A stretch of DNA of 64,000 nucleotides, from NCBI RefSeq assembly GCF_014203735.1, contig NZ_JACHJQ010000006.1, forward strand, positions 505,698-569,697, given 5' to 3'. The notes under the pieces are model-generated. The model had not been told where the DNA came from. It saw nothing but the letters and a program-made list of their open reading frames with translations, and made no database searches. Origin of the DNA: Actinophytocola algeriensis (GTDB lineage Bacteria; Actinomycetota; Actinomycetes; Mycobacteriales; Pseudonocardiaceae). Shown in pieces: positions 6,864 through 59,530 of this stretch (within the stretch, counting starts at the first letter, position 1; each line of letters starts with the position of its first letter). Made by a program: the position numbers and the translations under genes.

Positions 6864-7197
6864 GTGCTGTGTCCACCGATGTTTGCCGGGTCCTCCGGCG
6901 GGTCCGGCCAAGCCGACGGTGATCACCCATACCGGGATGGGCTTGTTTAACCGTGAAAGGCGCGTTCAGGGCATCGCCGACGCTAATGCCGTGAAAGCGC
7001 CTTTCACGGCACAACGGGTGAGGGTGCGGAGACGGCGGGGGCGCCGGGGGGCGCAAGCCCCCCACACATCCGAGGCTGCCTGCCATCCCAGAGACCTGCC
7101 CCTCCGGCGAGGAGCCGCCGGAGGCAAACCACGTCCGGCGAGAACGTCCGGCGACAAACCACGAACCCACCCCGGCCAACGCAAGCGGACACAGCAC
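6864..7197. mobile_element. MITE-like element, copy 1 (334 bp, both ends present)
   Basis: The left end GTGCTGTGTCCAC begins at 6864 directly after TA (6862-6863). The right end, read on the minus strand, is GTGCTGTGTCCGC, ending at 7197 and followed by TG rather than TA. The termini match imperfectly over about 27 bases. Inside lie GTGAAAGGCGC/GCGCCTTTCAC palindromes (about 6953-7015), a GC-rich segment, and the hairpin CCTCCGGC...GCCGGAGG. Three further copies lie at 27616, 33834 and 59303. No transposase is encoded, so if it is mobile it is non-autonomous. It accounts for most of the gene-free stretch 6852-7274. Short reading frames inside it look like by-products of the palindromes. Confidence 0.75.
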
Positions 7198-7274
7198 TGG
7201 CTGCCGCGGCCGCACCCGCCAGTGGTTACCCGGTCCGGGGTGGGCTTCGTTGACCACCCCGGCCGGGACTCGCT

Positions 7275-8438
7275 TCAGGAGCCGAGGACGGCAAGCTCCC
7301 AAAGCGAGTAGCCCCACTGGGTGGCACGTTGTGTGCCGAGGACGCGCACGTACCGGCCGGCCGAGCTGACCGTCACCTCGTCCGTGCCACCGTCCGATGT
7401 GGTCGTCGAGTGGACCGTGCGCCACGTGGAGTTGTTGTCCGACAACTGGATCTGGTACGCGCGGCCGTACGCGGTCTCCCACACGAGCCGCACGCGCTGG
7501 ACGTCGCGGACCGAGCCGAGGTCCACGGTGATGGACTGCGGGTCGGCGAAGGCGCTGCTCCACCTCGTGCCGGAGTTGCCGTCGACGGCGTTGGCGCCGT
7601 TGTGGGACGTGCCGGGTTCGACGCTCGTCACCGTGACCGGCCTGCCTCTGGCCAGGTCCGTCACGCCCGTCGAGGTGCCGCAGTCCGCCGTCACCGCGCC
7701 GCCCGCCCACTGGATGCCGCCCAGCAGCATGCGGGTGAAGTTCGACTCGGTGTAGGACTGTTCGGTGTGGCCGAGGCCCGTGTACCAGGCACGGCCGCCC
7801 TGGTAGTTCTGGCACCACGTGATGGGGTGGTCGCCCATGGAGCCGCCGCTGTAGGTCGACTCGTCCAGGTTGGCCAGGACCTTCACGACCGAGCGCGGGT
7901 TGGTGCGGTAGTTGTACCACTCGTCGGTGCGCGTCCAGGTCGACGGCAGGTGCGCGGTCGACGGGTGCGCGGTGGTCTCGACGCGCACGTTCGCCTGCTG
8001 GATCGCGGGGTGCGAGGCGAAGTAGCCGCCGACGAGACCGCCGTACCAGGCCCAGCCGTACTCGGTGTCGGCCGCGGCGTGGACGCCGACGTAACCGCCG
8101 CCGCCCCGGATGTAGGACTCGAACGCGGCCTGTTGGGTGTCGTTGAGGACATCGCCGGTCGTGGAGAGCCACACGACGGCCTGGTACTGCGCCAGGTTGG
8201 CGGTGGTGAACTGGTTGGCGTCCTCGGTCGCGGTGACCGAGAAACCGTTCTGCGATCCCAGCGTGGTGATCGCGGCGATGCCCTCGTCGATCGACGAGTG
8301 GCGGAAACCGGCGGTCTTCGAGAACACCAGGATCTTGGACAGCGGAGCGGCGTCCGCCTGCGGCGGGGCGGCCAGTGGTGCGACGACGACGGCCATGGCC
8401 GCGGTCGCGACAAGGAGAGCCTTGGCAACGGTGCGCAC
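7275..8438 (-). CDS. Secreted ThuA-domain protein with C-terminal F5/8 (discoidin/CBM32-like) domain
   Basis: 387 residues from GTG at 8438, chosen because GAGAGGA lies 7 bases upstream and the signal peptide (RTVAKALLVATAAM) then starts at once; a longer frame reaches 8495 but would put 19 odd residues before it. After cleavage near AQADAA-type residues comes a ThuA fold (KILVFSKTAGFRHSSIDEG, GGGGYVGVHAAADTEYGWAWYGGLVGGYF, WYTGLGHTEQSYTE). Then residues about 260-387 form a galactose-binding-like domain (NAVDGNSGTRWSSAF, ITVDLGS, YVRVLG). ThuA proteins are linked to trehalose and other sugar use, and secreted forms with carbohydrate-binding domains are common in actinomycetes. Divergent from the nuclease gene at 8854. 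Enzymatic activity is not established for the family. Confidence 0.88.
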   Translation of the reverse strand: MRTVAKALLVATAAMAVVVAPLAAPPQADAAPLSKILVFSKTAGFRHSSIDEGIAAITTLGSQNGFSVTATEDANQFTTANLAQYQAVVWLSTTGDVLNDTQQAAFESYIRGGGGYVGVHAAADTEYGWAWYGGLVGGYFASHPAIQQANVRVETTAHPSTAHLPSTWTRTDEWYNYRTNPRSVVKVLANLDESTYSGGSMGDHPITWCQNYQGGRAWYTGLGHTEQSYTESNFTRMLLGGIQWAGGAVTADCGTSTGVTDLARGRPVTVTSVEPGTSHNGANAVDGNSGTRWSSAFADPQSITVDLGSVRDVQRVRLVWETAYGRAYQIQLSDNNSTWRTVHSTTTSDGGTDEVTVSSAGRYVRVLGTQRATQWGYSLWELAVLGS

Positions 8439-8853
8439 GACTCGGTCCTCTCTCGGTGCAGGGGTGGATCCGAAAGAGACAGCAGGGTGTTTCACAAGCA
8501 GTTAACATCCGAGGTCTCGTTGCCGTCAAGCGCCCATTCGGACGTCATGAACGAGAAAGATTGACCGAGACATCCGATGTCTACTGGTCAGCCGATCAAG
8601 ATCGTCCTCCGCTGGGAAAACGCCCGCATTACGCCGTTCGGCATATCCGGAAACGGCGCCGAAGAATGGTGCGAACCGTTACGGTGACAATCCGCACATA
8701 TCCACCGTAACCAGCCGTATCCAGGCGACTCCGTTGTGTGCCAACGATTTCCAGCGCCCATCTAACAATCGCGCAACGTACATCTGCGCGCATTTTTCTC
8801 GACACCGTTCACACCTAGGCTCCGGCAGGTTCTATCCGCCTGATGGAGGCCCG
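8439..8853. promoter_or_regulatory. Divergent promoter region with repeated and inverted motifs
   Basis: This 415-base AT-richer gap separates the divergent thuA-like and nuclease genes. It holds two near-copies of ACATCCGAKGTCT, at 8505-8517 and 8570-8582. The second is part of an exact dyad GACATC-C-GATGTC (8569-8581). It also holds a 9-base perfect inverted repeat GTTACGGTG...CACCGTAAC with a 16-base spacer (8678-8686 and 8703-8711). These look like operators, but I cannot name the regulator. I see no coding potential in the gap. Confidence 0.45.
8807..8837 (+). promoter_or_regulatory. Possible PHO-box-like direct repeats
   Basis: GTTCACAC at 8807 and GTTCTATC at 8829 are 22 bases apart, which is two units of the 11-base spacing of actinobacterial PhoP direct repeats (consensus GTTCACC). 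The middle unit is poor. The site ends 17 bases before the start codon of a secreted nuclease/5'-nucleotidase, a typical Pho-regulon product. The context supports it; the sequence match is weak. Confidence 0.25.
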
Positions 8854-11800
8854 ATGCCCAGTAGTAGACGTGTCCGTTCGCTCCAAGTCGTCGGAGCGCT
8901 GACCGCGATCGCCACGGTCGCCGCGATCGCCGCGGTGCCCTCGCTGGCCCAGGCGGCCGAACCGAACGCCCCGTTCCTGTCTGAGATCCACTACGACAAC
9001 GCCGGAACGGACACCGGCGAGGCGCTGGAGATCGAGGCCCCCGCCGGCTTCGACCTCTCCGGCTGGCAGCTCGCCCTGTACAACGGCAACGGCGGCGCGG
9101 TGTACAACACCCGCACGTTGTCCGGCTCCGTCCCCGACGCGGGTGTGGTCGTCGCGACCTACCCGGTCGACGGCCTCCAGAACGGCTCCCCCGACGCCGT
9201 CGCGCTCGTCCGCCCGGACGGCACGGTCGCGGAGTTCCTCTCCTACGAGGGCCCGCTGACCGCCACCGGCGGCCCGGCGAACGGCACGACCGCCACCGAC
9301 ATCGGCGTCGCCGAGGGCTCGGCCACCCCGGTCGGCCACTCGCTGCAGAAGATCGACGGCACGTGGCGCGCGCCGGCCCAGAACACCTTCGGCACCCGCA
9401 ACTCAGGCGGCGACCCGGACCCCGATCCGGACCCGGTCGGCTGCGACATCGCGGTCACCAACACGATCGCCGAGGTCCAGGGCACCACCGACGCCTCGCC
9501 GCTGTCCGGCAGCCAGGTCGTCATCGAGGGCGTCGTCACCGCCGACCACGGCACCGGCGGCTACAACGGCGTCTACGTGCAGAGCGCGGGCTCCGGCGAC
9601 CGCGCCCCCGCCGCGGGCACCGCCTCCGACGGCGTGTTCGTCTACCTGACCACCAACGCCGCCAACCACCCGGCTGTCGCCGTCGGCGACCAGGTCCGCG
9701 TGCGCGGTGTGGTCAGCGAGTTCAACGGCCTCACCGAGGTCACCATCGGCGCCAAGGCCGACTTCCAGGTCTGCGCGCACGACGCGACCCTGCCTGCCCC
9801 GGCCCAGCTGACCCTGCCGCTCGACCCGGCCGCGCGTGAGTCGGTCGAGTCGATGCTCGTCGCGCCGGTCGGTGACTTCACGGTCTCCGAGGTCTACAAC
9901 ACCAACCGCTTCGGCGAGGTCGTGCTGGCCGCCGGCGACCAGGCCGCGCCGATCCCGACCGACCTGTTCCGCCCCGGCACCCCCGAGGCGCAGGCGCAGG
10001 CCGCGGACAACAAGCTGCGGCGCCTGCTGCTCGACGACGGCTCCTCGACGAACCTGTCGAGCGCGGGCCAGCTGCCGCCGTACGTGTACCCGGGCGCGCC
10101 GCTGCGCGTGGGTGACCAGGTGGAGGCGTTCGCGCCGGCCGTGCTGTCGTACGGCTTCAACGAGTGGCGGCTGCAGCCGACCACCCCGGTGACCGCGACG
10201 ACCCCGGAGCTGCAGCGGACCACGTTCAAGTCGGCCAACCCGCGCACCCCCGCGCCGGCGGCCGTCGGCGGCGACCTCAAGGTCGCGAGCTTCAACGTGC
10301 TCAACTACTTCGTGCACTTCGGCGGCGACGCCCGGGGCGCGGACGACGAGGCCGGGCTCGCCAAGCAGGAAGCCAAGATCGTCTCCGCGATCACCGCACT
10401 GGACCCCGACGTGGTGGCCCTCGAGGAGATCGAGAACTCGGTCCGCTTCGAGGCGAACGACCCGCAGATGGCGCTGAAGCGGCTCGTGCACGCGCTCAAC
10501 GCCGCGGACGGCGCCGGCACGTGGGACTACGTGCGCTCGCCTGCGAACCTGCCGCCCGCCGCGCAGCAGGACTTCATCACGACCGCGATCATCTTCAAGC
10601 CCGGTTCGGTGACCCCGACCGGTGCTTCGACGACGATCAACGACGAGACCGTGTGGTTCAACGCGCGGGAGCCGATCGCGCAGACGTTCACCGCGGGCCA
10701 GGTCACGTTCACCGTGGTGGCCAACCACATGAAGTCGAAGTCCTCTTCGGACTCCGCGACCGGCGACAACGCCGACGCCGGGGACGGCCAGGGCGCGTTC
10801 AACGGCGACCGGGTCCGGCAGGCACAGTCGCTGACCGCGTTCGTGGACGGGCTGAAGGCGTCGTCCGGCAGCGACGACGTGATCATCCTGGGCGACTTCA
10901 ACGCCTACACGCACGAGGACCCGATGCAGGTCTTCTACGACGCCTCGTTCGACGACGTCGCAGACGGCGAGGCCAGCTACGTGTTCGGCGGCGAGTCCGG
11001 TTCGCTGGACCACGCGGTCGCGACCCCGTCGCTCATGCAGCGGGTCACCGGCGTGGACGTGTGGCAGATCAACTCGCACGAGTCGTTCGCGTTCCAGTAC
11101 GACGGCCACCCGGCGTTCTACGCACCGGACCCGTACCGGGCGAGTGACCACAACCCGAAGGTGATCGGCATCAACACCGGCGCGCTCGCTCCGGTCGACC
11201 TGCAGATCCTGGGCATCAACGACTTCCACGGCCGCCTCGAGCCGCCGTCGGCGGGCGTTGGTGGCGCGGCACAGCTCGCGGGGCTGGTCGGCCAGCTGCG
11301 GGAGCAGAACCCGAACACGCTGTTCCTGTCGGCCGGTGACAACATCGGCGCGTCGACGTTCGTGTCGGCCATCGACGATGACAACCCGACGCTCGACGCG
11401 CTGAACCTGATGGGTCTGGACGCGGCGGCGGTGGGCAACCACGAGTTCGACAAGGGCTTCGCGGACCTGTCCGGCCGGGTGACCGACCGGGCGGACTTCC
11501 CGTACCTCGGCGCGAACGTGTACCGCGGGAACGACCGGGTGCTGCCCGCCTACGACGTGCAGACCGTGGCCGGTGTGCGCGTGGGCATCGTCGGTGTGGT
11601 GACCGAGCAGACGGCGTCACTGGTGAGCCCGGACGGGATCGCGGGCCTGACGTTCCGCGACCCGGTGGCCGAGGCGGACGCGGTCGCCGCGCAACTCTCC
11701 GACGGCGACGAGGCCAACGGCGAGGCCGACGTGGTCGTGCTGCTGGCACACGAAGGCGCGGCGACCGAGAACATCGGTTCCGCGCAGGACCTGCAGAACG

Positions 11801-13215
11801 ACCCGGTCTTCGGTGACTTCACGCGGGTCAGCGCGGACATCGACGCCATCCTGTCCGGGCACACGCACCAGCCGTACGCCTTCGAGATCCCGGTGCCGGG
11901 CACCGACCGGACCCGCCCGGTCATCCAGGCCGAGGACTACGGCGTGAAGCTGGGCAAGGCCACGTTGTCGATCGACCCGGCGACCAAGACGGTCATCTCG
12001 TCGGACGCGGCGCTGCTGGACGTGACCGGCGCACCGAGTGACCCCGAGGTCGCGGCACTGGTCGCACAGGCCAAGGCGAACGCCGAGGAGCTGGGCAAGG
12101 AGCCGCTGGGATCGATCACGGCCGACATCAAGCGGGCGTTCACGCAGGCGGGTGCCGAGGACCGCGGTGCCGAGTCGGTGCTGGGCAACTTCGTCGCCGA
12201 CGTGCAGTTGGCGGGCACCAAGGACGCGGGCCGGGGTGGAGCGCAGATCGCGTTCATGAACCCGGGCGGTCTGCGGTCCGACCTGCTGTACGCACCGGAC
12301 GGTGTCGTCACCTACTCCGAGGCGTTCTCGGTGCAGCCGTTCTCGAACGACGTCGTGACGAAGTCGTACACGGGCGCCCAGATCAAGCAGGTGCTGGAGG
12401 AGCAGTGGCAGCCCGCCGGTGCTTCGCGGCCGAAGCTGCACCTGGGTGTGTCAGCCGGGTTCCGCTACCTGTACCTGCCGGACAACCCGGCCGGTCAGCG
12501 GATCACGGGCATGTGGCTGAACGACGTGCCGATCGACCCGGCCGCGACCTACCGGGTGACGGTGAACTCGTTCCTGGCCTCTGGCGGCGACAACTTCGCC
12601 ACCCTGGCCCAGGGCACGAACCCGGCCACGACGGGCGACAACGACCTGACGATGCTGACCGCCTACATCGGTGCCAACTCGCCGATCACCGCGGACCCGG
12701 CGCCGAGGTCGGAGATCGGCCAGCCAGGCCCGGCCTGCGACGTGACGATCACGGGCATGAAGTTCGGCCCGGTCACCGTCTCGTCCGGCCTGACCTGTGT
12801 GGACGGCGCGACGATCCTGGGTCCGGTGACGGTCAGGGCAGGCGCGTCACTGATCGTGACCAACGGCCTGATCGCAGGCCCGGTCACGGCCACGAAGCCA
12901 CAGGTCTTCGAGCTGGGCGGCACGCAGGTCTTCGGCCCGGTGACGGTCACCGGCGCGACGGACCGGGTGGAACTCGACAAGGCCGACATCACCGGCCCGG
13001 TCTCGCTGGCCACCAACAAGGCAGGCGTCGCGATCGACACGTCGAAGATCACCGGCCCGGTGTCGCTGGTCGGCAACACGGGCGGTGCGGCGGTCGTGGC
13101 GGGCAACACGGTCACCGGCCCACTCGCGTGCACGGGCAACAACCCGCCGCCGACCAACGACGGCAGGAAGAACACCGTGCGCGGCCCAGCGTCCGGGCAG
13201 TGCGCGAAACTCTGA
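8854..13215 (+). CDS. Secreted multidomain nuclease / 5'-nucleotidase (ExeM/NucH-like fusion)
   Basis: 1453 residues from ATG 8854, which has GGAGG at 8845 and starts a clear signal peptide ending near AQAAEP; an upstream in-frame ATG at 8734 lacks these. Order: lamin-tail domain (about 30-170), OB-like region (about 200-340), endonuclease/exonuclease/phosphatase domain from about 474 (VASFNVLNYF, LEEIENS, ANHMKSKS, ILGDFNAY, SDHNP), metallophosphatase from about 783 (GINDFHGRLEP, GDNIGAS, GNHEFDKGF near 861, LSGHTHQPY near 999) and 5'-nucleotidase C-terminal domain from about 1083. The tail from about 1294 is a ladder of GPVTV/GPVSL repeats like a short beta-helix. All metal-ligand motifs of both enzymes look intact. 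Expected job: degrade extracellular DNA and release phosphate and nucleosides. No cell-wall anchor seen. Confidence 0.92.
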   Translation: MPSSRRVRSLQVVGALTAIATVAAIAAVPSLAQAAEPNAPFLSEIHYDNAGTDTGEALEIEAPAGFDLSGWQLALYNGNGGAVYNTRTLSGSVPDAGVVVATYPVDGLQNGSPDAVALVRPDGTVAEFLSYEGPLTATGGPANGTTATDIGVAEGSATPVGHSLQKIDGTWRAPAQNTFGTRNSGGDPDPDPDPVGCDIAVTNTIAEVQGTTDASPLSGSQVVIEGVVTADHGTGGYNGVYVQSAGSGDRAPAAGTASDGVFVYLTTNAANHPAVAVGDQVRVRGVVSEFNGLTEVTIGAKADFQVCAHDATLPAPAQLTLPLDPAARESVESMLVAPVGDFTVSEVYNTNRFGEVVLAAGDQAAPIPTDLFRPGTPEAQAQAADNKLRRLLLDDGSSTNLSSAGQLPPYVYPGAPLRVGDQVEAFAPAVLSYGFNEWRLQPTTPVTATTPELQRTTFKSANPRTPAPAAVGGDLKVASFNVLNYFVHFGGDARGADDEAGLAKQEAKIVSAITALDPDVVALEEIENSVRFEANDPQMALKRLVHALNAADGAGTWDYVRSPANLPPAAQQDFITTAIIFKPGSVTPTGASTTINDETVWFNAREPIAQTFTAGQVTFTVVANHMKSKSSSDSATGDNADAGDGQGAFNGDRVRQAQSLTAFVDGLKASSGSDDVIILGDFNAYTHEDPMQVFYDASFDDVADGEASYVFGGESGSLDHAVATPSLMQRVTGVDVWQINSHESFAFQYDGHPAFYAPDPYRASDHNPKVIGINTGALAPVDLQILGINDFHGRLEPPSAGVGGAAQLAGLVGQLREQNPNTLFLSAGDNIGASTFVSAIDDDNPTLDALNLMGLDAAAVGNHEFDKGFADLSGRVTDRADFPYLGANVYRGNDRVLPAYDVQTVAGVRVGIVGVVTEQTASLVSPDGIAGLTFRDPVAEADAVAAQLSDGDEANGEADVVVLLAHEGAATENIGSAQDLQNDPVFGDFTRVSADIDAILSGHTHQPYAFEIPVPGTDRTRPVIQAEDYGVKLGKATLSIDPATKTVISSDAALLDVTGAPSDPEVAALVAQAKANAEELGKEPLGSITADIKRAFTQAGAEDRGAESVLGNFVADVQLAGTKDAGRGGAQIAFMNPGGLRSDLLYAPDGVVTYSEAFSVQPFSNDVVTKSYTGAQIKQVLEEQWQPAGASRPKLHLGVSAGFRYLYLPDNPAGQRITGMWLNDVPIDPAATYRVTVNSFLASGGDNFATLAQGTNPATTGDNDLTMLTAYIGANSPITADPAPRSEIGQPGPACDVTITGMKFGPVTVSSGLTCVDGATILGPVTVRAGASLIVTNGLIAGPVTATKPQVFELGGTQVFGPVTVTGATDRVELDKADITGPVSLATNKAGVAIDTSKITGPVSLVGNTGGAAVVAGNTVTGPLACTGNNPPPTNDGRKNTVRGPASGQCAKL

Positions 13216-26987: not shown

Positions 26988-27616
26988 TTGCGTTCCCTCT
27001 TACGCGTCGCGGCCTGCGGCGCGCTCGTCGCCGCGGTCGCCGGCCTCACGGTCCCGGCGTCGGCGAGTGACCGCGACTACCGGACGAACCTCGGTCTCGC
27101 ACCGCTCGGCACGTACGCGACCGGCATCTTCGACGAGAGCGCCGCCGAGATCGTGTCGTACCACCCCCGGTCGCGGCGGCTGTTCGTGGTCAACGCGGCA
27201 CAGGCCAAGGTCGAGGTGCTCGACGCGGCCGACACGGCGGTCCCGGCGAAGCTGTTCGACCTGGTCACCGTCGGTGTGCGGGCCGCGGACGGCACCACGA
27301 TCCCGGTCGGCGCGGTCGCCAACTCGGTCGACGTGCGGCCGGACGGCCTCGGCGCGGTCGCGATCGAGTCGGCCACCAAGACCGACCGGTGTACGACGTC
27401 ACCGACCCGCGGCACCCGTTCTTCGTGACCTACGAGAACAACCGGGACTTCGCGGAGTCCGTCGAGGACGGCGGCGACCTCGCGAAGGCGGGCGATCTCG
27501 GGCCGGAGGGCCTGACGTTCATCCCCGCCGAGGACTCTCCGACCAGGACGCCGCTCGTCGCGGTGGCCAACGAGGTCTCCGGCACGACCACGCTGTTCCG
27601 CGTCACGATCAGTTAG
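26988..27616 (+). pseudogene. Truncated 'choice-of-anchor I' secreted protein, internal deletion with frame change
   Basis: The gene starts well: TTG at 26988 with GGAGG five bases upstream, a signal peptide (LLRVAACGALVAAVAGLTVPASA) and the opening of a beta-propeller-like choice-of-anchor I protein (GLAPLGTYATGIFDESAAEIV, RRLFVVNAAQAKVEVLD, VDVRPDG). At about 27388 the frame changes abruptly. The last 75 residues in the other frame are the normal C-terminus of the same family (VYDVTDPRHPFF, GDLGPEGLTFIPAEDSPT, VANEVSGTTTLF). Intact proteins are several hundred residues; here about 210 remain, so the whole middle is gone. The stop codon TAG (27614-27616) is completed by the first base of element copy 2. 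Called a pseudogene with confidence. Confidence 0.85.
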
Positions 27617-27981
27617 TGCTGTGTCCACTTACGTTGGCCGGGGTGGGTTCGTGGTTTGTCCTTGCCGGACGGGGTTTGCCTCCGGCGGCTCCTCGCCGGA
27701 GGGGCAGGTCTCTGGGATGGCTCCCTGGGTTGGCAACGGGGGTCTTTGGCAGGGACTCTTTCGGTGGTCTGCCTGCAGCCTCGGGTGTGGTGTGGGGCTT
27801 GCGCCCCCCGGCGCCTGCCCACCCTCACGACGTCCGTTGTGCTGTGAAAAGGCGCTTTCACGGCGTTGGCCATGCTCTGAACGCGCCTTTCACGGCACAC
27901 CAGCCCACCCCGGTACGGCGATCATTGTCGGCTTGGCCGGACCCCGCCGCAGGACCCGGCAAACGTTGGTGGACACAGCAC
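27616..27981. mobile_element. MITE-like element, copy 2 (366 bp, best-preserved ends)
   Basis: Inverted orientation to copy 1. Both ends read GTGCTGTGTCCAC and both are flanked by TA (27614-27615 and 27982-27983), the duplication expected for IS630/Tc1-mariner-type insertion. The ends match over about 24 of 27 bases. Inside are the same hairpin CCTCCGGC/GCCGGAGG, the GC-rich segment, and GTGAAAAGGCGC-type palindromes (about 27844-27900). Compared with copy 1 it carries an extra segment near 27720-27775. It lies exactly between two decayed genes and finishes both reading frames. No transposase inside. Confidence 0.8.
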
Positions 27982-28669
27982 TAGCCGAGCGACGGAACCA
28001 CGGTCTTGGCGACCGCGGTCGCCTTCTCGCAGGCGGTCGCGGCGTCGAGGCCGCTGTCCGGTTCTCCGCTGAACGACACGGAAACCAGCTCGCCGTAACC
28101 GTCCGCCTCGTCCTCGACCGGGGTTTCCACCCGCAGCCAGGTCACCGCGCACCGGACGGTGCTCGTGTCCTCGTCCTTCACCTGGATCGCCGGCACGCCG
28201 CCACCGAGGCCGGCGGGGTCACCGTCCTCCGCCGCCACTGGCAGGCCGGTGTGGAAGTTCACCGACAGCTGCGGGTAGCTCGTGCCGTCACCGGTCCAGA
28301 TGTCGCACTCGTGCAGGCCTTCGGCTCCACGAACGTCTCCTCCCCCAGCGCGGTCACCAAGGCCTTCTCGTCGGCCATCGCGCACGGGTCGGCGGTCAGC
28401 ACCGTCCCTTCCACCTGCTCGTACTGCGGCGGGGCGTCGTGCAGTGTCGTCAGAACCGTTGTCAGCTCTGTCTTTCCGGCCGCGCACCCGTCGCCGCCCG
28501 GATAGTCCACCTGGAACGTGATGCCCAGCGACAGCTCGAACGACGTCACGACCGACACCCAGCACGACTCCGGGTCCTCGTCGTCCACGACCAGCGGCAG
28601 TCCCGCCAGCTCACCGCTCGGGTCGTCCGCCATGATCAGCTGGTCGCCGATCCGCAGCACGAACTCCAC
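27981..28669 (-). pseudogene. Frameshifted Cys-containing protein with two similar halves (unrecognised)
   Basis: Two overlapping minus-strand frames make one protein-like sequence. Frame A, from about 28669, gives EFVLRIGDQLIMADDPSG... to EETFVEPK; frame B continues GLHECDIWTGDGTSYPQL to the end KTVVPSLG. They join at a run GAAGG near 28322, so a single base change would restore one frame. The protein resembles actinobacterial secreted sensor or lipoprotein domains such as DUF3558 (DPCAMADEKALVTALGE; paired cysteines), but I cannot name it. No start codon with a ribosome-binding site or signal peptide is visible upstream; the frame is open only back to a TGA near 28755. The TAG stop is made of element copy 2 plus its TA flank. 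A sequencing error cannot be excluded. Confidence 0.65.
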
Positions 28670-33302: not shown

Positions 33303-33358
33303 GTTATAGACAAGACTTTCGCTCAACTTGCGCGAAAGTTTGCTCAAATCTTGCTCAA
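33303..33358 (-). promoter_or_regulatory. GH97 promoter/operator region
   Basis: Upstream of the GH97 start: a candidate -10 TATAAC (33303-33308, minus strand), a perfect inverted repeat ACTTTCGC-N9-GCGAAAGT (33315-33322 and 33332-33339), and three repeats of the type TTNGCTCAA (33318, 33339, 33350). Repeats of the TTGAGCAA kind recall the LacI-family sites in front of actinomycete sugar genes. The regulator is not in the window. Confidence 0.5.
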
Positions 33359-33833
33359 GTAGGCCCGCACCCTGACCATGGCGTCATCGGGTGACCCATC
33401 GTTGGCGACGACGAGCCTCGGCCCGTCACGCCCGGCGTCCCACGGCTCGTACGCGACCGCCGTGACCTGCCGCCACGTCGGCACGACCAGCCCGGTGACG
33501 TCACTGCGCCGCGCCTCGACCCGACGCCGATGCTCAGCCGGATCGGACACGACGACCTCGATCAGGCGCACCGACGTCCCCGACGCGCGGGCCAGTTCCA
33601 GCCAGCCGGCCCGAGCCGCAGGCACCGGCGAGACCGCGTCCACCACGACGGAGGCACCCACGACCAGACACGACGCGGCAACCTCGTGCGCGACGACGTA
33701 GCCAACCGGACCGAGCGGCGGCTCCGCCAGCCCACTGCGGATGACCGCCGCCTCGATGGCGTCGATCCGGAGGTGGGCGGCTTTCAGCTCCGCGGCCGTG
33801 AGCCTGGCGAGCGTCGTCTTGCCGGTGCCCGGC
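33344..33833 (-). pseudogene. P-loop kinase/AAA gene cut at its Walker A by element copy 3
   Basis: On the minus strand the frame reads GTGKTTLARLTAAELKAAHLR from the element junction onward, then GLAEPPLGPVGYVVAHEVAAS and the remainder of a small P-loop (zeta-toxin/kinase-like) protein, ending VRVRAYLSKI at 33344. The first strand and the start of the Walker A loop, normally xxxLxGxPGTGKTT, are missing: the sequence before PPGTGKTT is element DNA (about 33834 on). No start codon is in frame before 33661, which lies beyond the Walker A. So the gene has lost its N-terminus and should be inactive. Unusually, the deleted part is about the first 10-12 residues only. Confidence 0.75.
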
Positions 33834-34141
33834 GGGGTGGGCTGGTGTGCCGTGAAAGGCGCGTTCAGGGCATCGCCGGTGTTGTGAAAGGCGCGTTGAG
33901 GGCGGTGAGCGTCCTAAACGCGCCTTTCACAGCATGGCCTGTGCCGTGAAGGCGCCTTTCACGGCACAACGGGATGTCGTGAGGGTGCGGGAGACGCCGG
34001 GGGGCGCAAGCCCCACACCACACCCGAGGGTGCCTGCCATCCCAGAGACCTGCCCCTCCGGCGAGGAGCCGCCGGAGGCAAAGCCCGTCCGGCGAGAACA
34101 AACCACGAACCCACCCCGGCCAACGCAAATGGACACAGCAC
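33834..34141. mobile_element. MITE-like element, copy 3 (about 308 bp, left end lost)
   Basis: Same orientation as copy 1. It starts abruptly at GGGGTGGGCTGG, corresponding to a point well inside copy 2, so about 60 bases including the left terminal repeat are missing. The right end, read on the minus strand, is GTGCTGTGTCC, ending at 34141 and followed by TA (34142-34143). It carries four or more GTGAAAGGCGC/GCGCCTTTCAC palindromes (33852-33965), the GC-rich segment and the CCTCCGGC hairpin. It sits between a truncated kinase gene and a methyltransferase gene whose stop codon it completes. Confidence 0.75.
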
Positions 34142-34908
34142 TACGAACGAACAGCCGTATGAAGCGTGGCGGCGAACTCCAACGTGATACCGCCGTTGCG
34201 GTGCATCTCCTCCGCACCGCGGAAGAAGCGCTCGCGAAACGTGACGGCCTCACCACCAGGCAGTGAGTCGAGCGCTTCCGGCACGCCCTGCAGCGCGAGC
34301 CAGTCCCACAACGCGGCCGGGTCGTCCATGTCCTTCGGCACCTTCACCAAGGCCCGCTCCGGAGCGGCGAAACCCGACCCGACGAGCAATTCGTCCAGGC
34401 CGTCCGGGGACAGCGGGTCGCCACCGCTCTCGCCGCCGAAGAACTCGCGGTTCAGGTCGTGGAGCCAGCCGAGGCGGCCGACCGTCTGCCGTTCGAGTGA
34501 CAGCGCCACCATGCCGCCCGGTGCGAGGACGCGGTGGAACTCCGCCAGCGCCGCCGCCGGTTCGGTGAGCACCTGCACCAGGAACCCGGCGGTCACCACG
34601 TCGAACGACCCGTCGGGGAAGTCGAGCGCGCCCGCGTCCTGCTGGCGCGCCACCATCTCCGGGTGGTCGTCGGCGAGCCGGGCCACCATGCCGGCCGACG
34701 CGTCGACCGCGGTCACCGCACAGCCACGCGCCAGCGCGGCCCTGGCGACCGCCCCTCGTCCGGCGCCGACGTCCAGCAGCCGTGCGCCCGGCGGTGGCCC
34801 CGCTGCCGACACCAGCTCCTGTCCCATGTCAGCGACGTAGAAGTAGATCTCCTCGTAGCGGTCGGCGAGCGCGTCGTACTTGCGCCGTCCCTGTTCGGTA
34901 CTGGTCAC
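34141..34908 (-). CDS. SAM-dependent methyltransferase (class I)
   Basis: 255 residues. Motif I LLDVGAGRGAVARAALARG binds SAM; the acidic loop ending motif II is AVTAVDASAGMV; motif III-IV FDVVTAGFLVQVL; the typical LAPGGMVALSLER follows. It is a Methyltransf_11/25-type small-molecule methyltransferase; substrate unknown. The stop codon TAG, read at 34143-34141, combines the TA flank and the last base of element copy 3, so the native C-terminus may have been altered by the insertion. No operon partners. Confidence 0.85.
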   Translation of the reverse strand: MTSTEQGRRKYDALADRYEEIYFYVADMGQELVSAAGPPPGARLLDVGAGRGAVARAALARGCAVTAVDASAGMVARLADDHPEMVARQQDAGALDFPDGSFDVVTAGFLVQVLTEPAAALAEFHRVLAPGGMVALSLERQTVGRLGWLHDLNREFFGGESGGDPLSPDGLDELLVGSGFAAPERALVKVPKDMDDPAALWDWLALQGVPEALDSLPGGEAVTFRERFFRGAEEMHRNGGITLEFAATLHTAVRS

Positions 34909-48532: not shown

Positions 48533-48637
48533 TGGTCCCTTCGTAACACTCGGTGCGATGAAGGACCCCTTCGTTGCGCTCAACGCCATGAAGGACCCCT
48601 TCATCGCTGCCGACGTGATGAAGGGGTCCTTCATGAG
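48532..48637. repeat. Tandem palindromic repeats, 30-nt period
   Basis: ATGAAGGACCCCTTCRT-type palindromes start at 48558, 48588 and 48618, exactly 30 bases apart, with a degenerate unit at 48532 that begins within three bases of the sigma-gene stop. The units are abutting, without unrelated spacers. Each 15-17 base core is self-complementary. In frame they spell MKDPF or MKGSF on both strands. Role unknown; could end transcription of the sigma gene. Confidence 0.85.
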
Positions 48638-52394: not shown

Positions 52395-53575
52395 CCGGCT
52401 TCGCAGCGCACACCGGCGACCTCTACGGGTTCGAGGAGCAGCTCTCCGACGCGGAACGCGCGATCGTCCTGCGGGTGCGGGAGTTCCTGCAGGCCGAGGT
52501 CGCGCCGATCGCCACCGAGTACTGGGAGCGCGCCGAGTTCCCGTTCCAGGTCATCGACGGTTTCCGCGCCCTCGACACCGCGGGCCTGATGTACGACGGG
52601 ATGGCCGCGCACCGCGGCACCCGCCTGCTGACCGGGTTCATCGCGCTGGAGATCGGCCGCGTCGACCCGTCCATGAACACCTTCTACGGCGTCCACACCG
52701 GACTCGCCATGGGCAGCGTCGACCGCTGCGGCTCACCGGAGCAGCGCGAGCGGTGGCTGCCTGCCATGGCACGCATGGAGAAGATCGGCGCGTTCGCGCT
52801 GACCGAGCCGCACGGCGGGTCCGACGTGGCAGGTGGCCTGGAGACCACGGCCCGCCGCGACGGCGACACGTGGCTGCTCAACGGCGCGAAGCGGTGGATC
52901 GGCAACGCCACGTTCGCCGACCTCGTCGTCGTCTGGGCCCGCGACGAAGAAGACGACCAGGTCAAGGGGTTCGTCGTCGAGAAGGGCACGCCCGGCTTCA
53001 CCGCCACGAAGATCGGGGGCAAGGTCGCGCTGCGGACCGTGCAGAACGCGGACATCGTCCTGGCCGACTGCGTGGTGCCGGAGGAGAACCGGCTGCGGCG
53101 CGCGAACTCGTTCCGCGACACCGGCGACGTGCTGCGCCAGACCCGCGGCGGGGTCGCGTGGGGCGCGGTCGGCTGCATGATGGGTGCCTACGAGGCCGCG
53201 CTGCGCTACGCGGGCGAGCGGGTGCAGTTCGGCAGGCCCATCGCGGGTTTCCAGCTGGTGCAGGACCACCTGGCGACGATGCTCGGCAACGTGACGTCGT
53301 CGCTCGCGATGGTCGTCGGCCTGGCCGGCCTGCAGGACCGCGGCGTCAACAAGGACGAGCACGCCGCGCTCGCGAAGTCGGTGGTGTCCACGCGGATGCG
53401 CGAGACGGTGGCGCTCGCGCGGGAAGTGCTGGGCGGCAACGGGATCCTGCTGGAGAACGACGTGGCGCGGTACATGGCCGACGCGGAGGCGCTGTACTCC
53501 TACGAGGGCACCAGGGAGATCAACCAGCTGATCGTCGGCCGCGCGGTCACGGGGTTGAGCGCGTTCGTTCGCTGA
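52391..53575 (+). CDS. Acyl-CoA dehydrogenase, glutaryl-CoA-dehydrogenase-like
   Basis: 394 residues from ATG 52391. Domain order is normal: N-terminal helices, FALTEPHGGSDVAGGLETTARR (FAD/substrate loop), LLNGAKRWIGNATFADLVVVWA, RGGVAWGAVGCMMGAYEAALRYAGERVQFGRPIAGFQLVQDHLA and the end EGTREINQLIVGRAVTG, where the Glu of YEGT is the catalytic base. These are the glutaryl-CoA group motifs; decarboxylation cannot be assumed. The end overlaps the converging LAL gene by 29 bases. Confidence 0.9.
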   Translation: MTGFAAHTGDLYGFEEQLSDAERAIVLRVREFLQAEVAPIATEYWERAEFPFQVIDGFRALDTAGLMYDGMAAHRGTRLLTGFIALEIGRVDPSMNTFYGVHTGLAMGSVDRCGSPEQRERWLPAMARMEKIGAFALTEPHGGSDVAGGLETTARRDGDTWLLNGAKRWIGNATFADLVVVWARDEEDDQVKGFVVEKGTPGFTATKIGGKVALRTVQNADIVLADCVVPEENRLRRANSFRDTGDVLRQTRGGVAWGAVGCMMGAYEAALRYAGERVQFGRPIAGFQLVQDHLATMLGNVTSSLAMVVGLAGLQDRGVNKDEHAALAKSVVSTRMRETVALAREVLGGNGILLENDVARYMADAEALYSYEGTREINQLIVGRAVTGLSAFVR

Positions 53576-55946
53576 CGACGACACGGCGTGCCAGTTCCAC
53601 GCGGGAGCGCACCCCGAGCGTGGTGAAGATGTTGCGCAGGTGGTGGTCCACGGTCCGGTGGCTGATCACGAGGCGCCGCGCGATCTCCTTGTTCGTCTCC
53701 CCGGCCGCGACGAGCCGCGTGATCGCCGCCTGCTGCGGGGTGAGCCCGGCGAGCGACTGGTGCGGCGCGGCGACGGTCTCGCCGGTGGCCCGCAGGCCCG
53801 CACGGGCACGTTCGACGTACCTCGGCGCGCCCACGTTCTCGAAGCCCCGCAAGGCGTCGCGGAACTGGTCGCGTGCGTCGCGGGTGCGCCGGTGGCGGCG
53901 CAGGAGCGTCGCGTAGGCGAGCTGGGTGCGGGCCAGCTCCATGCCGCTGCCCGCGCGCCGGTGGCAGTCGATCGCTCGGCGGAAGTGGAACTCCGCCTCG
54001 GCGGTGTCCGATGTGGTCAGCGCGTGGCAGCGGTGGGACAGCGCCAGCCAGGTCGGGCTGCCACCGGTACGCGTCCAGCGGTCGAAGATGTCGAGCGCCG
54101 CCCGCGCGCGCTCCGGGCGCGCCACGAGCACCGCCGCCTCGACGAGCTGCGGCGTGGCGAGGACCCGGATCGCGGGCTGGTCCCCCGCCACGCCCGCGGC
54201 GAGGTCCTCGAGCCTGCCGAGCGCGTCGTCGGGCCGGTCCTCGGCGAGGTCGAGGCAGGCGTGCGCCCACGCGGCCACGGCGGCCGGCCTGCCCAGCCCG
54301 CGCTCGGCGATGCCGCCCGCCGCCTCGTCCAGTTCCGCTGCCCGGTCGCCGAGTAGCGCGGCGGCGAGCCCGAGCAGCGTCAGGTGCTCCATGCGCAGGT
54401 TGTGCGGCGCGGACAGCCCGTCCCGGGACGCCGCTTTGGCGCAGGGGATCCGGTCGAGCACGATGGCGGACAGGGAGAAGAACACCAGCGCCCACGGCAG
54501 CTCCGCGTGCCGCTTCCCGAGCCGGGCCCGGCCGACCGCGGCGGCCGCGCACTCGTGGGCCTGCTCGACGTGACCGCGCGCGAAGGCGGCCTCGGCGGCC
54601 CAGACCGCACCGGCCACGTCGGTGGCCGCCATGCCCCGCCGCACGGTCTCGTCGAGCGGCTCCGCCGCGTCGTCGTGCCGTCCGGCGAAGATCGCGGTGA
54701 ACCCGCGGAAGTGCGCGTCGACCAGGCCGCCCCCGCCAGCCAGCTCGAGGCCGAGCCTGCGGTAGCCGCGCAGGTCACCACCCAGCCTGCGCGCCTCGCC
54801 TGCCAACAGCAGCGCGGGCGCCGGGTCGGGCAGCAACGCCGCGGCCGTGGTCAGCTCGTGGGTGGCGACGGCCGGGTCGCCGTCGCGCAGCTCGATCTCC
54901 CCGTGCCGCAACGCGACCTCACCCGGCCGGGTGTCCACCCGGGACAGCAGCAGCCGCGCCCAGCCCGGCCTGCCCGCCTGCCACGCCGCGTCGACCGCGG
55001 CCAGCAGCCGGGTGGCCCGCAACGCCGGGTCGGCGGTCAGCGCCGCCGCCCGTTCCAGCTGCCGGGCGGCCGTCGCGTGGTCGGCGGCCGGGGCGGCCGC
55101 CAGCTCGTCGGCCAGTGTCGCGGACTGGGTCGCGGTCGCCATCGCGCGGTGCCACGTGCGGTCCGGCCCCTCCAGCGTGGACGCCAGGTGTGCGTGCGCG
55201 GCCCTGCGGTCGGCGAGCGAGGCCGCCGCGTACCACGTCGACCGGGTCGCCCTGCTCATGTCGGCGGGTGCCTCGGCGGCGTTCGCCAGCAGCCGGATCC
55301 GGTCCGCCTCGGACAGTTCCGCGAGCCGTGCGGCGTATCGGGACAGCCGCGACACGAGGACCGGCGACACCGGTTCCCGGCCGGCCGCCTGCGCCGCGGT
55401 CAGCGACTCCGCGAGTGCCACCAGGTCCGCCGGGTTGCCACCACCCAGCTCGACCAGCTGTGGCCGCACCCCGGCCGGCACCCCGCGGTCGCGCAGCAGC
55501 GCGTCCGCCGCGTCGTCGGTCAACGGGGTCAGCTCCACCGACTCGAACAGCTCGGACGGGGTCCTGGACGCCAGGACGACACCCACCGGGTGCCCCGCGA
55601 GCCGCCGGGCGGCGAACGCCAGCGCGGCACGGGATTCCTCGTCGAGCCACTGTGCGTCGTCCACCCAGCACAGCGTCGGCATCGACACCGTCGTCAGCAT
55701 GCGGTGGACCGCGGGACCGTCCACCACCGCGGCACCGAACATCCGTTGCAGCGCGGCGAACGGCAGCGCACGTTCCGCCAGCAGGCCCGGCACACCGAGG
55801 ACGCGGGTGCCCGTCGCGGCACGCAGGGCCGTCAGCAGCGCCGACTTGCCGAGCCCTTCCGCGCCGCGCACCAGCACCGCGCCGCCGACCACCGACCGCA
55901 GCCCGCCGAGCACGGCATCCCTGCCACGCAGCGGGTAGGCGGTCAC
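53547..55946 (-). CDS. LAL-type LuxR regulator (AAA ATPase plus LuxR HTH)
   Basis: 799 residues. The N-terminus is an AAA/STAND ATPase: RGRDAVLGGL, Walker A VRGAEGLGKSALL and Walker B LCWVDDAQWLDEESRAAL. A long helical/TPR-like middle follows, with a LuxR HTH at the end (GLTPQQAAITRLVAAGETNKEIARRLVISHRTVDHHLRNIFTTLGVRSRVELARRVVV). Large LuxR regulators of this kind control catabolic or specialised pathways in actinomycetes. It overlaps the acyl-CoA ligase by four bases, so both share one transcript and likely one pathway. Confidence 0.93.
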   Translation of the reverse strand: MTAYPLRGRDAVLGGLRSVVGGAVLVRGAEGLGKSALLTALRAATGTRVLGVPGLLAERALPFAALQRMFGAAVVDGPAVHRMLTTVSMPTLCWVDDAQWLDEESRAALAFAARRLAGHPVGVVLASRTPSELFESVELTPLTDDAADALLRDRGVPAGVRPQLVELGGGNPADLVALAESLTAAQAAGREPVSPVLVSRLSRYAARLAELSEADRIRLLANAAEAPADMSRATRSTWYAAASLADRRAAHAHLASTLEGPDRTWHRAMATATQSATLADELAAAPAADHATAARQLERAAALTADPALRATRLLAAVDAAWQAGRPGWARLLLSRVDTRPGEVALRHGEIELRDGDPAVATHELTTAAALLPDPAPALLLAGEARRLGGDLRGYRRLGLELAGGGGLVDAHFRGFTAIFAGRHDDAAEPLDETVRRGMAATDVAGAVWAAEAAFARGHVEQAHECAAAAVGRARLGKRHAELPWALVFFSLSAIVLDRIPCAKAASRDGLSAPHNLRMEHLTLLGLAAALLGDRAAELDEAAGGIAERGLGRPAAVAAWAHACLDLAEDRPDDALGRLEDLAAGVAGDQPAIRVLATPQLVEAAVLVARPERARAALDIFDRWTRTGGSPTWLALSHRCHALTTSDTAEAEFHFRRAIDCHRRAGSGMELARTQLAYATLLRRHRRTRDARDQFRDALRGFENVGAPRYVERARAGLRATGETVAAPHQSLAGLTPQQAAITRLVAAGETNKEIARRLVISHRTVDHHLRNIFTTLGVRSRVELARRVVVSERTRSTP

Positions 55947-57508
55947 GACAACCGGCTCCGCAGCTCGCGTTTGAGCACCTTCCCCGCCGCGGACACCGGG
56001 ATCTGGTCGACGAAGACGACGTCCCGCAAACGCTTGTACGCGACCACCTGCTCGTTCACCACGGACATCAGGGAGTCCGCGGTGACCGCCTCGGACGCGG
56101 GCACCACGAACGCGACCGGCAGCTCACCGACGGACGGGTCCGGCTTGCCGACGACGGCCGCCGCGAGCACCCCCGGCTGTGCGGCCAGGATCTCCTCCAG
56201 CTCACGCGGGTAGACGTTGTAGCCCTTGTACAGCAGCATGTCCTTCATGCGGTCGACGATGGACAGGTAGCCGTCCTCGTCGAGCACGCCGACGTCACCG
56301 GTGTGCAGCCAGCCGTCCCTGATCACCTCGGCGGTCGCGTCGGGCCGGTTGTGATAGCCCGCCATGACCTGCGGGCCCTTGACGCAGACCTCGCCGCGCT
56401 CGCCGGCCGGCACCTCGGCGCCGGCCGAGTCGAGGATCCGCACCCGCGTGTCGAAGGTCGGCACGCCGACGGTGCCCACCTTCCGCACACCCGACCGGTG
56501 CACCGGGCCCAGCGTGGCGCCCATGGTGACCTCGGTGAGCCCGTAGCCCTCGGTCACCACGGCATCCGGTGCCAGCGCACGCATCCGGTTGATCATCTCG
56601 AGCGGCATCGGGGCGGCACCGGACGAGATCGTCCTGACGGTCGTCAGGTCGGTGGTGGCGATCGCCGGGTGGTTCAGCAGCGCCGCGAACAACGCGGGTG
56701 CGCCACCGATCGACGTGATCCGCAGCCGTTCGGCGTCGGCGAGGTAGGCACCAGGGTCGAGCCGGTCGTGCAGCACGGTCGTGTAACCCAGCAGCAGCAG
56801 GGCGTTCAGCCCGGCGATGGTGCCCATCGCGTGGAACCACGGCGTCAGGTTGATCGCGACCGACGTGCCGAGGCGGCTCGGGTACTCGTCCTCGGAGGCG
56901 ACCTGGTCGAGCACGACACCGCCGTCCGCGTCGAGCGCGGGCACCGAACCGGATCCCCAGCACGCGTACTGCAGCGTGTTCACCACGACGTTGCGGTGCG
57001 GCAGGCGCACGCCCTTCGACTCGCCGGTCGTGCCGCCGGTGTAGGCGAGGTGCGCGAGGTCGCCGTACACGTCGATGTCGACGACCGGTGGCGCCGCCGG
57101 CTGTCCCGTGCACAACCCCGGCACGTCCGAGGGGCTCAGGGTCAGCACCGCGCCGGCGTCCGCGATCTGTTTGGCGGCGGCGGGTTCCGGCAGCAGCGGG
57201 TTCACCGGCACGAACACCGCGCCCGCGAGCAACGTGCCGTAGTAGGCGACCGGGTACTCCAGGCAGTTCGGCATCCGCAGCGCCACCCGGTCACCGGGCC
57301 GGACACCGCGCGCGAGGAGCCCGTGCGCGGCCTGCGCCGCCCGCTCACCCAGTTGGCGGTAGGTCACGGCCTCGGCGCCGCGGGAGAAGGCGACCCGGTC
57401 GCCGTAGCGGCGCGCCGCGCCCGCGAGGATGGCGCCGGCCGCGACTTCGGGATATACGAGCGATCCCGGGAGCCCGGGTGGCCAACTGACGTCCGTCCGG
57501 ACGGGCAT
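55943..57508 (-). CDS. AMP-dependent acyl-CoA ligase
   Basis: 521 residues. P-loop YTGGTTGESKGVRLPHRNVV, then GGAPALFAALL, VTEGYGLTEVT, GEVCVKGPQVMAGYHNRPDATAEV, WLHTGDVGVLDEDGYLSIVDRMKDMLLYKGYNVYPRELEEIL and the late lysine in PVSAAGKVLKRELRSRL. All ten core motifs of the ANL superfamily are in order. The acid activated is unknown; the fatty-acid type is favoured. A regulator operator lies just upstream of the start. Confidence 0.92.
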   Translation of the reverse strand: MPVRTDVSWPPGLPGSLVYPEVAAGAILAGAARRYGDRVAFSRGAEAVTYRQLGERAAQAAHGLLARGVRPGDRVALRMPNCLEYPVAYYGTLLAGAVFVPVNPLLPEPAAAKQIADAGAVLTLSPSDVPGLCTGQPAAPPVVDIDVYGDLAHLAYTGGTTGESKGVRLPHRNVVVNTLQYACWGSGSVPALDADGGVVLDQVASEDEYPSRLGTSVAINLTPWFHAMGTIAGLNALLLLGYTTVLHDRLDPGAYLADAERLRITSIGGAPALFAALLNHPAIATTDLTTVRTISSGAAPMPLEMINRMRALAPDAVVTEGYGLTEVTMGATLGPVHRSGVRKVGTVGVPTFDTRVRILDSAGAEVPAGERGEVCVKGPQVMAGYHNRPDATAEVIRDGWLHTGDVGVLDEDGYLSIVDRMKDMLLYKGYNVYPRELEEILAAQPGVLAAAVVGKPDPSVGELPVAFVVPASEAVTADSLMSVVNEQVVAYKRLRDVVFVDQIPVSAAGKVLKRELRSRLS

Positions 57509-57533
57509 CGGCGCCTCCTTCGGTCACCCATGA

Positions 57534-57558
57534 TGAAACACCGTGTACTTGTGTTTCA
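57534..57558. promoter_or_regulatory. Operator-like inverted repeat before the acyl-CoA ligase gene
   Basis: TGAAACAC-N9-GTGTTTCA, perfect arms, 26 bases upstream of the ligase start. Its right arm overlaps the stop codon of the QsdR-type repressor gene (57556-57558). The likely binder is that repressor. Confidence 0.65.
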
Positions 57559-58152
57559 CAAGGGGGTCGTCGGCACCCGGCCCTCCACCAGCGCCGCGAG
57601 CAGCGTCGACGCGGCCCCGAGGTCGGGTGCCCGCGAGGCGAGCACGTCGGAGTACAGGAAGGCTTCACCGAGCCGGACGATGGCGTAACACAGGCTTTCC
57701 AGGCTCACCGCCGGCACGAACCCGCCGTCCTCGACGTCGCGGCGCAACAGGTCGACATGTGCCGCCATCACCCTCGGCTGCACCCGGCCGTGCGGGTCGG
57801 TGAGGATCCGGATGGCGACGGTCGGCTCCTCGTCGAGGAACCGCCGGAACCCCTTGTTGCCCGCGATGGCCGAGCGGTACTCCCGCATCACGGCGAGGCA
57901 CCGCAGCTCACCGTCGGCATCGCGCACAGCGGATCCCTCGGTCCGCTCCCACGTCCGGACCGCGGCCGCCATGGTGTGGTCGGCGAGGTACCAGAGCGCC
58001 TCGCCGAGCAGGTCCTCCCGGTTGCCGACACGGCGGAACAGCGTGCTGCGCGAGATGCCCAGCTCGTGGGCGAAGGTACGGGTGTCCATGCGGATGCCGC
58101 GATCGATCCAGTGCGCTGCGGAACGGACGATCTCGTCGGCGGTGGGGCTCAC
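57556..58152 (-). CDS. QsdR-family TetR-type transcriptional regulator
   Basis: About 198 residues if the GTG at 58152 is the start; other frames reach 58182 and 58257. The HTH is [51 protein letters not shown], and the C-terminal domain has [40 protein letters not shown], the QsdR-type ligand domain. QsdR relatives respond to acyl-lactones or acyl-CoA. Downstream lies the inverted repeat of 57534, then the ligase/LAL operon, which it probably represses. Confidence 0.82.
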
Positions 58153-58289
58153 GACCGCCGATGGTACGTCCGCCAGGGGCACATCGTGCCGGATCCCACC
58201 ACACACCGGTGATTGCACCGATGCGGCACCTGGCGTCCGTTTGCCACAGTCGGTCACCGAACGTGTTCAACGGCGAACGGAGAGGGCAC

Positions 58290-59147
58290 ATGCGAAGAGG
58301 CGCACGAATCCTGTGTGGACTGTCGGCGGTCGCGGCACTCGCGATCGCGCCGACGGCGCAGGCAGTGGACAACCCGTACGAGCGGGGCCCGGACCCCACG
58401 GAGAACAGCATCGAGGCGTCGCGAGGCCCGTTCTCGGTGTCACAGACGACGGTGTCGAGCCTGGTATCGGGCTTCGGCGGCGGCACCATCTACTACCCGA
58501 CCAGCACGTCGGAGGGCACTTTCGGCGCGCTGGCCATCTCGCCGGGCTTCACCGCGAGCCAGTCCAGCATCGCGTGGCTGGGCCCACGGCTCGCGTCGCA
58601 GGGTTTCGTGGTCATCACCATCGACACGAACTCGATCTACGACCAGCCGGCGAGCCGAGGCGACCAACTGCGAGCGGCGCTGTCGTACCTGACCAGCAGC
58701 AGCACCGTCCGCTCCCGCATCGACGCCTCCCGCCTGGCGGTGGCAGGCCACTCCATGGGCGGCGGCGGTTCCCTGGAGGCGGCGCAGGACCAGCCGACCC
58801 TGCAGGCGGCCATCCCGCTCGCGCCGTGGAACTCGCAGAAGTCCTGGTCGACCCTGCGCGTGCCGACGTTCATCATCGGCGGCGAGAACGACTCGGTCGC
58901 ATCGGTGTCCTCGCACGCCATCCCGTTCTACAACTCCATCCCGTCCTCCGCGGAGAAGGCGTACATGGAGATGAACGGCGCGAGCCACTTCTTCCCGAAC
59001 ACGTCGAACACCACGGTCGCGAAGTACATGATCTCGTGGCTGAAGCGCTTCGTGGACAACGACACCCGCTACGAGCAGTTCCTGTGCCCGGCGCCGAACG
59101 ACTCGGACATCGAGGAGTACCGGAACACCTGCCCGCACGCGGCCTGA
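58290..59147 (+). CDS. Secreted cutinase / polyester hydrolase (PET-hydrolase type I homologue)
   Basis: 285 residues from ATG 58290, with AGAGGG just upstream and a signal peptide ([21 protein letters not shown]). The mature start [20 protein letters not shown] and the whole chain follow actinomycete cutinases such as those of Thermobifida. Nucleophile Ser155 is in GHSMGGGGS, acid Asp201 in GGENDSVAS, base His233 in NGASHFFP; the spacings of these residues equal those of known cutinases. SPGFTA puts Phe where many have Tyr (oxyanion side); Trp in [10 protein letters not shown] is retained. The C-terminus has two Cys (LCPAP and TCPH), the usual disulfide. It would cleave polyester or lipid esters outside the cell. 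Confidence 0.93.
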
Positions 59148-59175
59148 CCCAACGCGCTGAGGGGCAGCGAATGCC

Positions 59176-59222
59176 GTGAGGGTGCGGATGGGGACGCTGG
59201 GCGTCGCTGTCCGCACCCTCAC
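59176..59222 (+). terminator. Terminator after the cutinase gene
   Basis: GTGAGGGTGCGGA and TCCGCACCCTCAC form a perfect 13-base-pair stem; the loop contains its own short stem GACGC-tgg-GCGTC. Confidence 0.8.
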
Positions 59223-59302
59223 AACCACACCACGCCCAACCAGATCGACCGCAGCCGTGGCCCCTCCCGAAATCCACATGACGGGTCGGGGCGGCGGCCG
59301 GT

Positions 59303-59530
59303 TGGCCGCGAAAGGCGCGTTCACGGCATCCCCAGTGCCGTGAAAGGCGCGTTCAGGACGTTGAGTGCCCTGAAAGCGCCTTTCACAGCATGACCAACGC
59401 CGCGAACGCGCCTTTCACAGCACAACGGGACGTCGCGAGGGCGCGGGAGACGCCGGGGGCGCCGGGGGCAAACCCCATCCGGCGAGAACAAACCACGAAC
59501 CCACCCCGGCCAACGTAAAGCAAGCAGCAC
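59303..59530. mobile_element. MITE-like element, copy 4 (degenerate)
   Basis: Same orientation as copies 1 and 3. The core shows GAAAGGCGCGTTCA palindromes and GCGCCTTTCAC (about 59307-59420), then a shortened GC-rich segment, GGCGAGAACAAACCACGAACC, and a corrupted right end GCAAGCAGCAC at 59530 followed by TA. The left end and the CCTCCGGC hairpin are lost. It fills most of the gap between the cutinase terminator and the PucR gene; the remainder (59531-59573) shows nothing. Confidence 0.65.

Follow-up and report, generated by a model that had tools for sequence, protein, structure and literature searches.

The host of IS630 is Shigella. The study by Tenzen and Ohtsubo (1991) reports, according to its title as cited in PMC2170065, that IS630 and a composite transposon have as their preferred target the TA within 5'-CTAG-3'. 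In the passages of the same paper considered here, ISY100 of Synechocystis is an IS630/Tc1-mariner element whose cut-and-paste transposition takes place at TA in vitro (PMC2170065). Among short elements, RUP of Streptococcus pneumoniae is described, in the parts of PMC3049150 that were compared, as having ends like those of IS630-Spn1, a length of about 107 bp, and an AT-rich sequence, while the corresponding parts of PMC3189936 place MITEPsy1 of Pseudomonas syringae, also a MITE, at CTAG or YTAA.

The locus analyzed here is a stretch of 64,000 nucleotides, referred to below as the window (G000:C6:505698-569697), from the genome of Actinophytocola algeriensis (9,733,683 bases or 9.73 Mb, in 23 contigs). 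It contains four related copies which almost certainly belong to a non-autonomous IS630-type MITE family, joined by a transposase into the TA of CTAG, with the stop codon rebuilt by the first G of the element. This reading is directly supported by the conserved ends, the TA flanks, the CTAG context, a resident insertion sequence (IS) with matching ends, two uninterrupted sites, and the placement on stop codons. The copies and the features associated to them are the following:

6862..7199, minus strand: copy 1, full length (6864-7197), with a B end at 6862-6875 on the left and an A end at 7186-7199 on the right.
27614..27983, plus strand: copy 2, full length (27616-27981) and flanked by TA left and right, with an A end at 27614-27627 and a B end at 27970-27983.
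27614..27616, plus strand: left stop at copy 2, a TAG ending the frame 27071-27613, where TA is the target and G belongs to copy 2; the reconstructed earlier codon is TAG.
27679..27702, plus strand: hairpin module CCTCCGGCGGCTCCTCGCCGGAGG (CCTCCGGC hairpin), exact in 30 of 39 genomic BLAST matches to copy 2.
27839..27899, plus strand: palindrome module of the GTGAAAGGCGC type, present also at three places outside end-bearing elements.
27981..27983, minus strand: right stop at copy 2, a TAG ending the ORF 27981-28565 (minus), where TA is again the target and G belongs to copy 2; the reconstructed earlier codon is TAA.
33834..34143, minus strand: copy 3, with an intact A end at 34130-34143 and the left end lost.
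34141..34143, minus strand: stop at copy 3, a TAG to which copy 3 contributes its first base and which ends a methyltransferase gene (34141-34908, minus).
59303..59533, minus strand: copy 4, core and decayed A (right) end, with an intact CTAG at 59530-59533.

An earlier note on this DNA had described four copies sharing a modular core, with both inverted ends in copies 1 and 2. All four were found again on re-reading the window, as were the paired ends of both copies, those of copy 2 being GTGCTGTGTCCAC. The TA flanks that it attributed to the family are present on both sides of copy 2 and on the left of copy 1 (6862-6863), but not on the right of copy 1, where the TA is now TG. Copy 2 is the only fully intact copy in the window, copies 1, 3, and 4 being eroded. 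Beside copy 3, the frame 33344-33840 is kinase-like with a P-loop (its AAA_33 match is weak and below the cut-off) and is apparently cut on its 5' side, which suggests a deletion at the point where copy 3 lacks its left end.

Genome-wide, the end word TAGTGCTGTGTCCA has 46 exact occurrences and 41 more that differ at a single base, giving 87 versus 4 for the reversed control, and a BLAST search with copy 2 returns 90 matches, several per copy. Once the ends were typed by their inner sequence, 68 insertions were resolved, 24 of them two-ended and 44 one-ended, with three further ends that belong to IS copies kept apart from this count. Two types of end follow the common word, A (CTTRCGTTGGCCGGGGTGGG) and B (CCAACGTTTGCCGGGTCCTG), each conserved over about 28 bp, and their consensus sequences agree at 26 of 34 bases. 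The end-conservation check proposed in the earlier note thus has a clear outcome, as the terminal inverted repeats are kept between copies across the genome. TA is found at 41 of the 48 ends of paired copies, and the other dinucleotides at the remaining seven are read as decay. Two-ended copies are 49 to 449 bp long, and the smallest (C2:288941-288993, 49 bp) is barely more than two joined ends, so the core is unnecessary for spread. Copies are short and gene-less, and the five DDE_3 hits of this genome all fall outside them, in agreement with the earlier statement that no transposase lies inside. That statement was accompanied by a claim of high density, which is true locally, with four copies in 64 kb versus a genomic mean of about one insertion per 143 kb (68 in 9.73 Mb); the window was, however, picked for its density, and copy 4 is outside the 68.

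At E<=1e-6, the sequence of copy 2 has no match in 59 other genomes, five of the same genus and the rest from the family or order. The exact end word is present in 12 of 390 genomes of the taxonomic family, with more than five occurrences only in A. algeriensis. The MITE family is new, and so far known from one species, and one genome, only. In another genus, a 165-bp element (L225, G023:C1:780708-780872) has the identical end word at CTAG and an apparently unrelated core. Within A. algeriensis, two pairs of insertions (C1:1053562 with C2:618918, and C6:872349 with C7:162898; L007, L010, L043, and L034) have a common adjoining outer flank, as if neighboring DNA had moved along with the element; these common flanks measure only 34 bp and 23 bp, and the 23-bp piece begins with TCTAG.

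The earlier note had also proposed a search for an autonomous IS630-type element with the same ends. An element of this type with matching ends is present in the genome, with its transposase frame broken. A DDE_3 profile search gave five hits, four of them above the cut-off and one lying between two matching ends. This resident IS (G000:C5:616893-618135) has a long open part matching DDE_3, HTH_32, and HTH_29, that is, a DDE_3-type catalytic domain and an N-terminal HTH; its right end agrees with consensus A at 28 of 34 bases and its left end with consensus B at 26 of 34. The frame is interrupted near the N-terminus by a one-base gap relative to G086 (open for 373 codons), and this is the only copy with matching ends in the assembly, whose 23 contigs leave gaps. 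Relatives of the IS with 86-88% identity are found in G086, G104, G110, and G162. Open frames of 378-381 codons occur in the first three; the G104 element has the end word without mismatch at one of its two ends, and the search for ends in G162 found none. The closest matches to the resident transposase in the family all come from one genus and are alike, the best named match being that of Amycolatopsis vastitatis. On these sequences, a matching enzyme exists in the taxonomic family, the one candidate copy of this assembly being broken, and the mini-elements would be mobilized in trans. The MITE ends thus match both a resident element with a broken transposase frame and relatives with open ones.

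The base outside the TA is C at 77 of 92 MITE ends, and at 40 of the 48 ends of paired copies. A set of related IS comprising 80 loci in named actinomycetes was examined as well; ends could be paired at 34 of these loci, and 46 of the 80 have no end pair under the criteria used. In the paired copies the outer base is C at 66 of 68 ends, both exceptions stemming from two of the 34 pairs that look false (7 mismatches). Since C is the outer base at nearly all related IS ends and at most MITE ends, the target is CTAG. Related IS630-type elements of Micromonospora, Actinoplanes, Dactylosporangium, and Streptomyces have this end and target logic in common. The IS630/Tc1-mariner reading that the earlier note drew from the TA flanks is hence supported by ends, flanks, and resident IS, but narrowed from any TA to CTAG.

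Empty sites in close relatives, likewise suggested in the earlier note, were searched for at seven joined sites, and two of them gave an informative uninterrupted site with a single CTAG in the genome of a sister species (G001). The counterpart of C7:205640 is an uninterrupted CTAG in an orthologous gene with the same TAG stop codon. That of C5:255475 is also uninterrupted with CTAG present, 9 bp differing alongside, and there the apparent stop of the gene is a TGA just before the CTAG. Together with the 41 of 48 paired ends, these sites agree with insertion at TA and duplication of the TA. In another genome (G002), the gene corresponding to that at C7:82607 ends at the same codon, as TGA, and the counterpart of the gene at window copy 2 ends one codon earlier.

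The background frequency of the target was taken from 20 control stretches, 400 kb in total, hand-placed away from known copies and not randomly drawn; because of this placement, the absence of end words from them is no evidence. CTAG occurs 60 times there, compared with 230 expected from the counts of CTA, TAG, and TA, and 1,073 expected from base composition. In-frame stops make up 20 of these 60 sites, and coding sequence lies on both sides of only 2, whereas stops account for 73 of 3,599 TA sites.

According to the mechanism that we propose, an IS630-type transposase would bind the ends of about 28 bp and excise the element, by a cut-and-paste chemistry like that of IS630/Tc1-mariner work, and the element would then be joined into the TA of CTAG, with duplication of the TA. 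As this GC-rich genome contains few CTAG sites, most of which remain at gene ends and between genes, those are the places where the element would land. Where the stop that is hit reads TAG or TAA, TAG would be rebuilt at once with the protein unchanged, because the first base of the element is G; with the protein unharmed at its stop, such insertions would be neutral.

The placement of many copies on stop codons was absent from the account of the earlier reader. Scoring the 150 bases outside each end, a codon model built from 30 long frames of the window recognizes 45 coding flanks at the 68 insertions; in 34 of these the gene runs into the element, its stop consisting of TA plus the first base of the element. 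Three of the 34 calls are false, failing the 60-codon open-frame test with an earlier stop fewer than 10 codons upstream, and were removed, so that 28 of the 68 insertions (31 ends) coincide with the stop codon of a frame open for at least 60 codons. With a maximum of 300 codons taken from each of these 31 frames, 22 matched Pfam at E<=1e-5 (one below the curated cut-off), including a GTPase with a complete KH domain, CBM_2, and the C-terminal domain of saccharopine dehydrogenase, several domains being complete near the C-terminus. A further 31 open frames were not called stop-ending by the codon model; nine were sent to Pfam and three matched, among them the methyltransferase gene at copy 3, which the model had overlooked and which was recovered through the ORF list and Pfam. 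For the 14 stop ends that belong to two-ended copies, reconstruction gives TAG as the earlier codon at 12 and TAA at two, one of the latter at window copy 2; today 13 are TAG and one is TAA through a changed first element base. In the related IS, 5 of 34 resolved loci are on stop codons, a weak figure given that the codon model was trained on this window.

Copy 2 is placed between two convergent frames, both of which end at it. The left one (27071-27613) matches in Pfam only the C-terminal part of the choice_anch_I (choice-of-anchor I) domain, and the upstream part of the gene may lie in another reading frame; the right one (27981-28565, minus) has no Pfam match. A counter-case to gene-end placement is copy 1, situated just upstream of a start codon, 10 bp away from the GTG with which a hydrolase ORF (6072-6851, minus) begins.

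The alternative that survives best, even though we regard it as improbable, is that copies are retained as two-way 3'-end modules, acting as terminators or mRNA stabilizers, with selection operating besides target choice. It would account for the direction of flanking genes: at 39 flanks the gene faces the element and at 6 it faces the other way, compared with 36 and 34 for control CTAG (p=1e-4, in a test where the two ends of a single insertion are not independent). This bias is left unexplained by target choice, and either a 3'-end role or the loss of insertions near promoters would produce it, purifying selection against promoter insertions yielding an equal bias. The convergent frames at copy 2 fit such a role, as does its RNA fold, with z of -6.0 for one strand and -5.5 for the other, both beating all 100 shuffles; long inverted ends alone would, however, be enough to cause the low folding energy. 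The exactness of the core hairpin in 30 of 39 matches is also in its favor, in a set gathered by similarity to copy 2 and showing little variation in the covariation check. Against it, elements show no significant preference for one orientation with respect to the gene: stops coincide with 21 of 48 B ends and with 10 of 38 A ends (p=0.12), the figures for two-ended copies alone being 5 and 4, and an orientation bias was accordingly dropped as a candidate. An RNA family search of the window gave zero matches.

An active choice of stop codons beyond that of CTAG, such as one coupled to the termination of translation, is highly improbable. Without an ORF filter, stops take up 31 of 68 insertions versus 28 of 96 control sites (p=0.033), but under a matched 60-codon filter the excess is not significant (28 of 68 versus 29 of 99, p=0.14), and we do not claim it. 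The choice of CTAG accounts for most of the stop-codon pattern. Least probable of all is that the family is of the palindromic REP/BIME kind and owes its spread to a Y1 transposase of the REP type, with incidental IS630-like ends, since the GTGAAAGGCGC palindromes found without element ends at three places in 400 kb (one in an apparent eroded copy) are outweighed by ends, TA flanks, and CTAG context agreeing with an IS630-type element, and by the 49-bp end-only copy; the two-ended copies, which measure 49-449 bp and have TA flanks and long inverted ends, also differ from the single palindrome of 20-40 bp tagged GTAG or CGTC by which the passages considered of PMC3733652 define REP/BIME.

Other repeats were seen along the way. 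Counted over both strands, the control stretches (L157-L176, 400 kb) contain AGCTTGCGGAGCGA 15 times, and overlapping words point to a longer unit around TGAGCGGAGCTTGCGGAGCGAACATC, an unrelated interspersed repeat. The window also contains, at 48537-48624, tandem 30-bp units with ATGAAGGACCCCTTCAT palindromes, and a related word, GAAGGGGTCCTTCAT, is present in control stretches too.

For the preferred reading, an IS630-type MITE family inserted at CTAG, target scarcity leading to gene ends and a first base restoring the stop give a countable reason for about 70 transposon copies in a gene-dense, GC-rich genome. They also carry a warning, as gene callers take part of a transposon for a stop codon. 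We offer only as a tentative and rather doubtful extension that a CTAG-choosing transposase with G-starting ends is an evolved safe-landing strategy that repairs stops, the mini-elements then being ready-made 3' ends between genes. If true, insertions would be steered to the few CTAG places surviving in GC-rich genomes, many of them stops. The account by target scarcity and stop restoration is itself widely testable, since related IS630-type elements of other actinomycetes have the same end and target logic. In literature searches of open papers, none was recognizable by title or abstract as dealing with stop-codon-restoring MITEs.

Compared with the systems introduced above, as far as the cited passages describe them, the family resembles IS630 in its target, TA in CTAG, and in its transposase superfamily, but is non-autonomous where IS630 is autonomous. 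ISY100 is likewise of the IS630/Tc1-mariner type with a TA target, and differs in being autonomous and in having a target given as TA, not CTAG (PMC2170065). RUP is similarly short, non-coding, folded, and of high copy number, with IS630-type ends; it is, in contrast, of about 107 bp and AT-rich, and placement at CTAG or stop codons is absent from the passages compared (PMC3049150). MITEPsy1 is alike in being a MITE reported at CTAG, and unlike in being IS5-like, with a 4-nt duplication and a length of 100 bp. In this company, the interesting property of the new MITE family of the IS630 kind is the combination of CTAG choice with stop-codon restoration.
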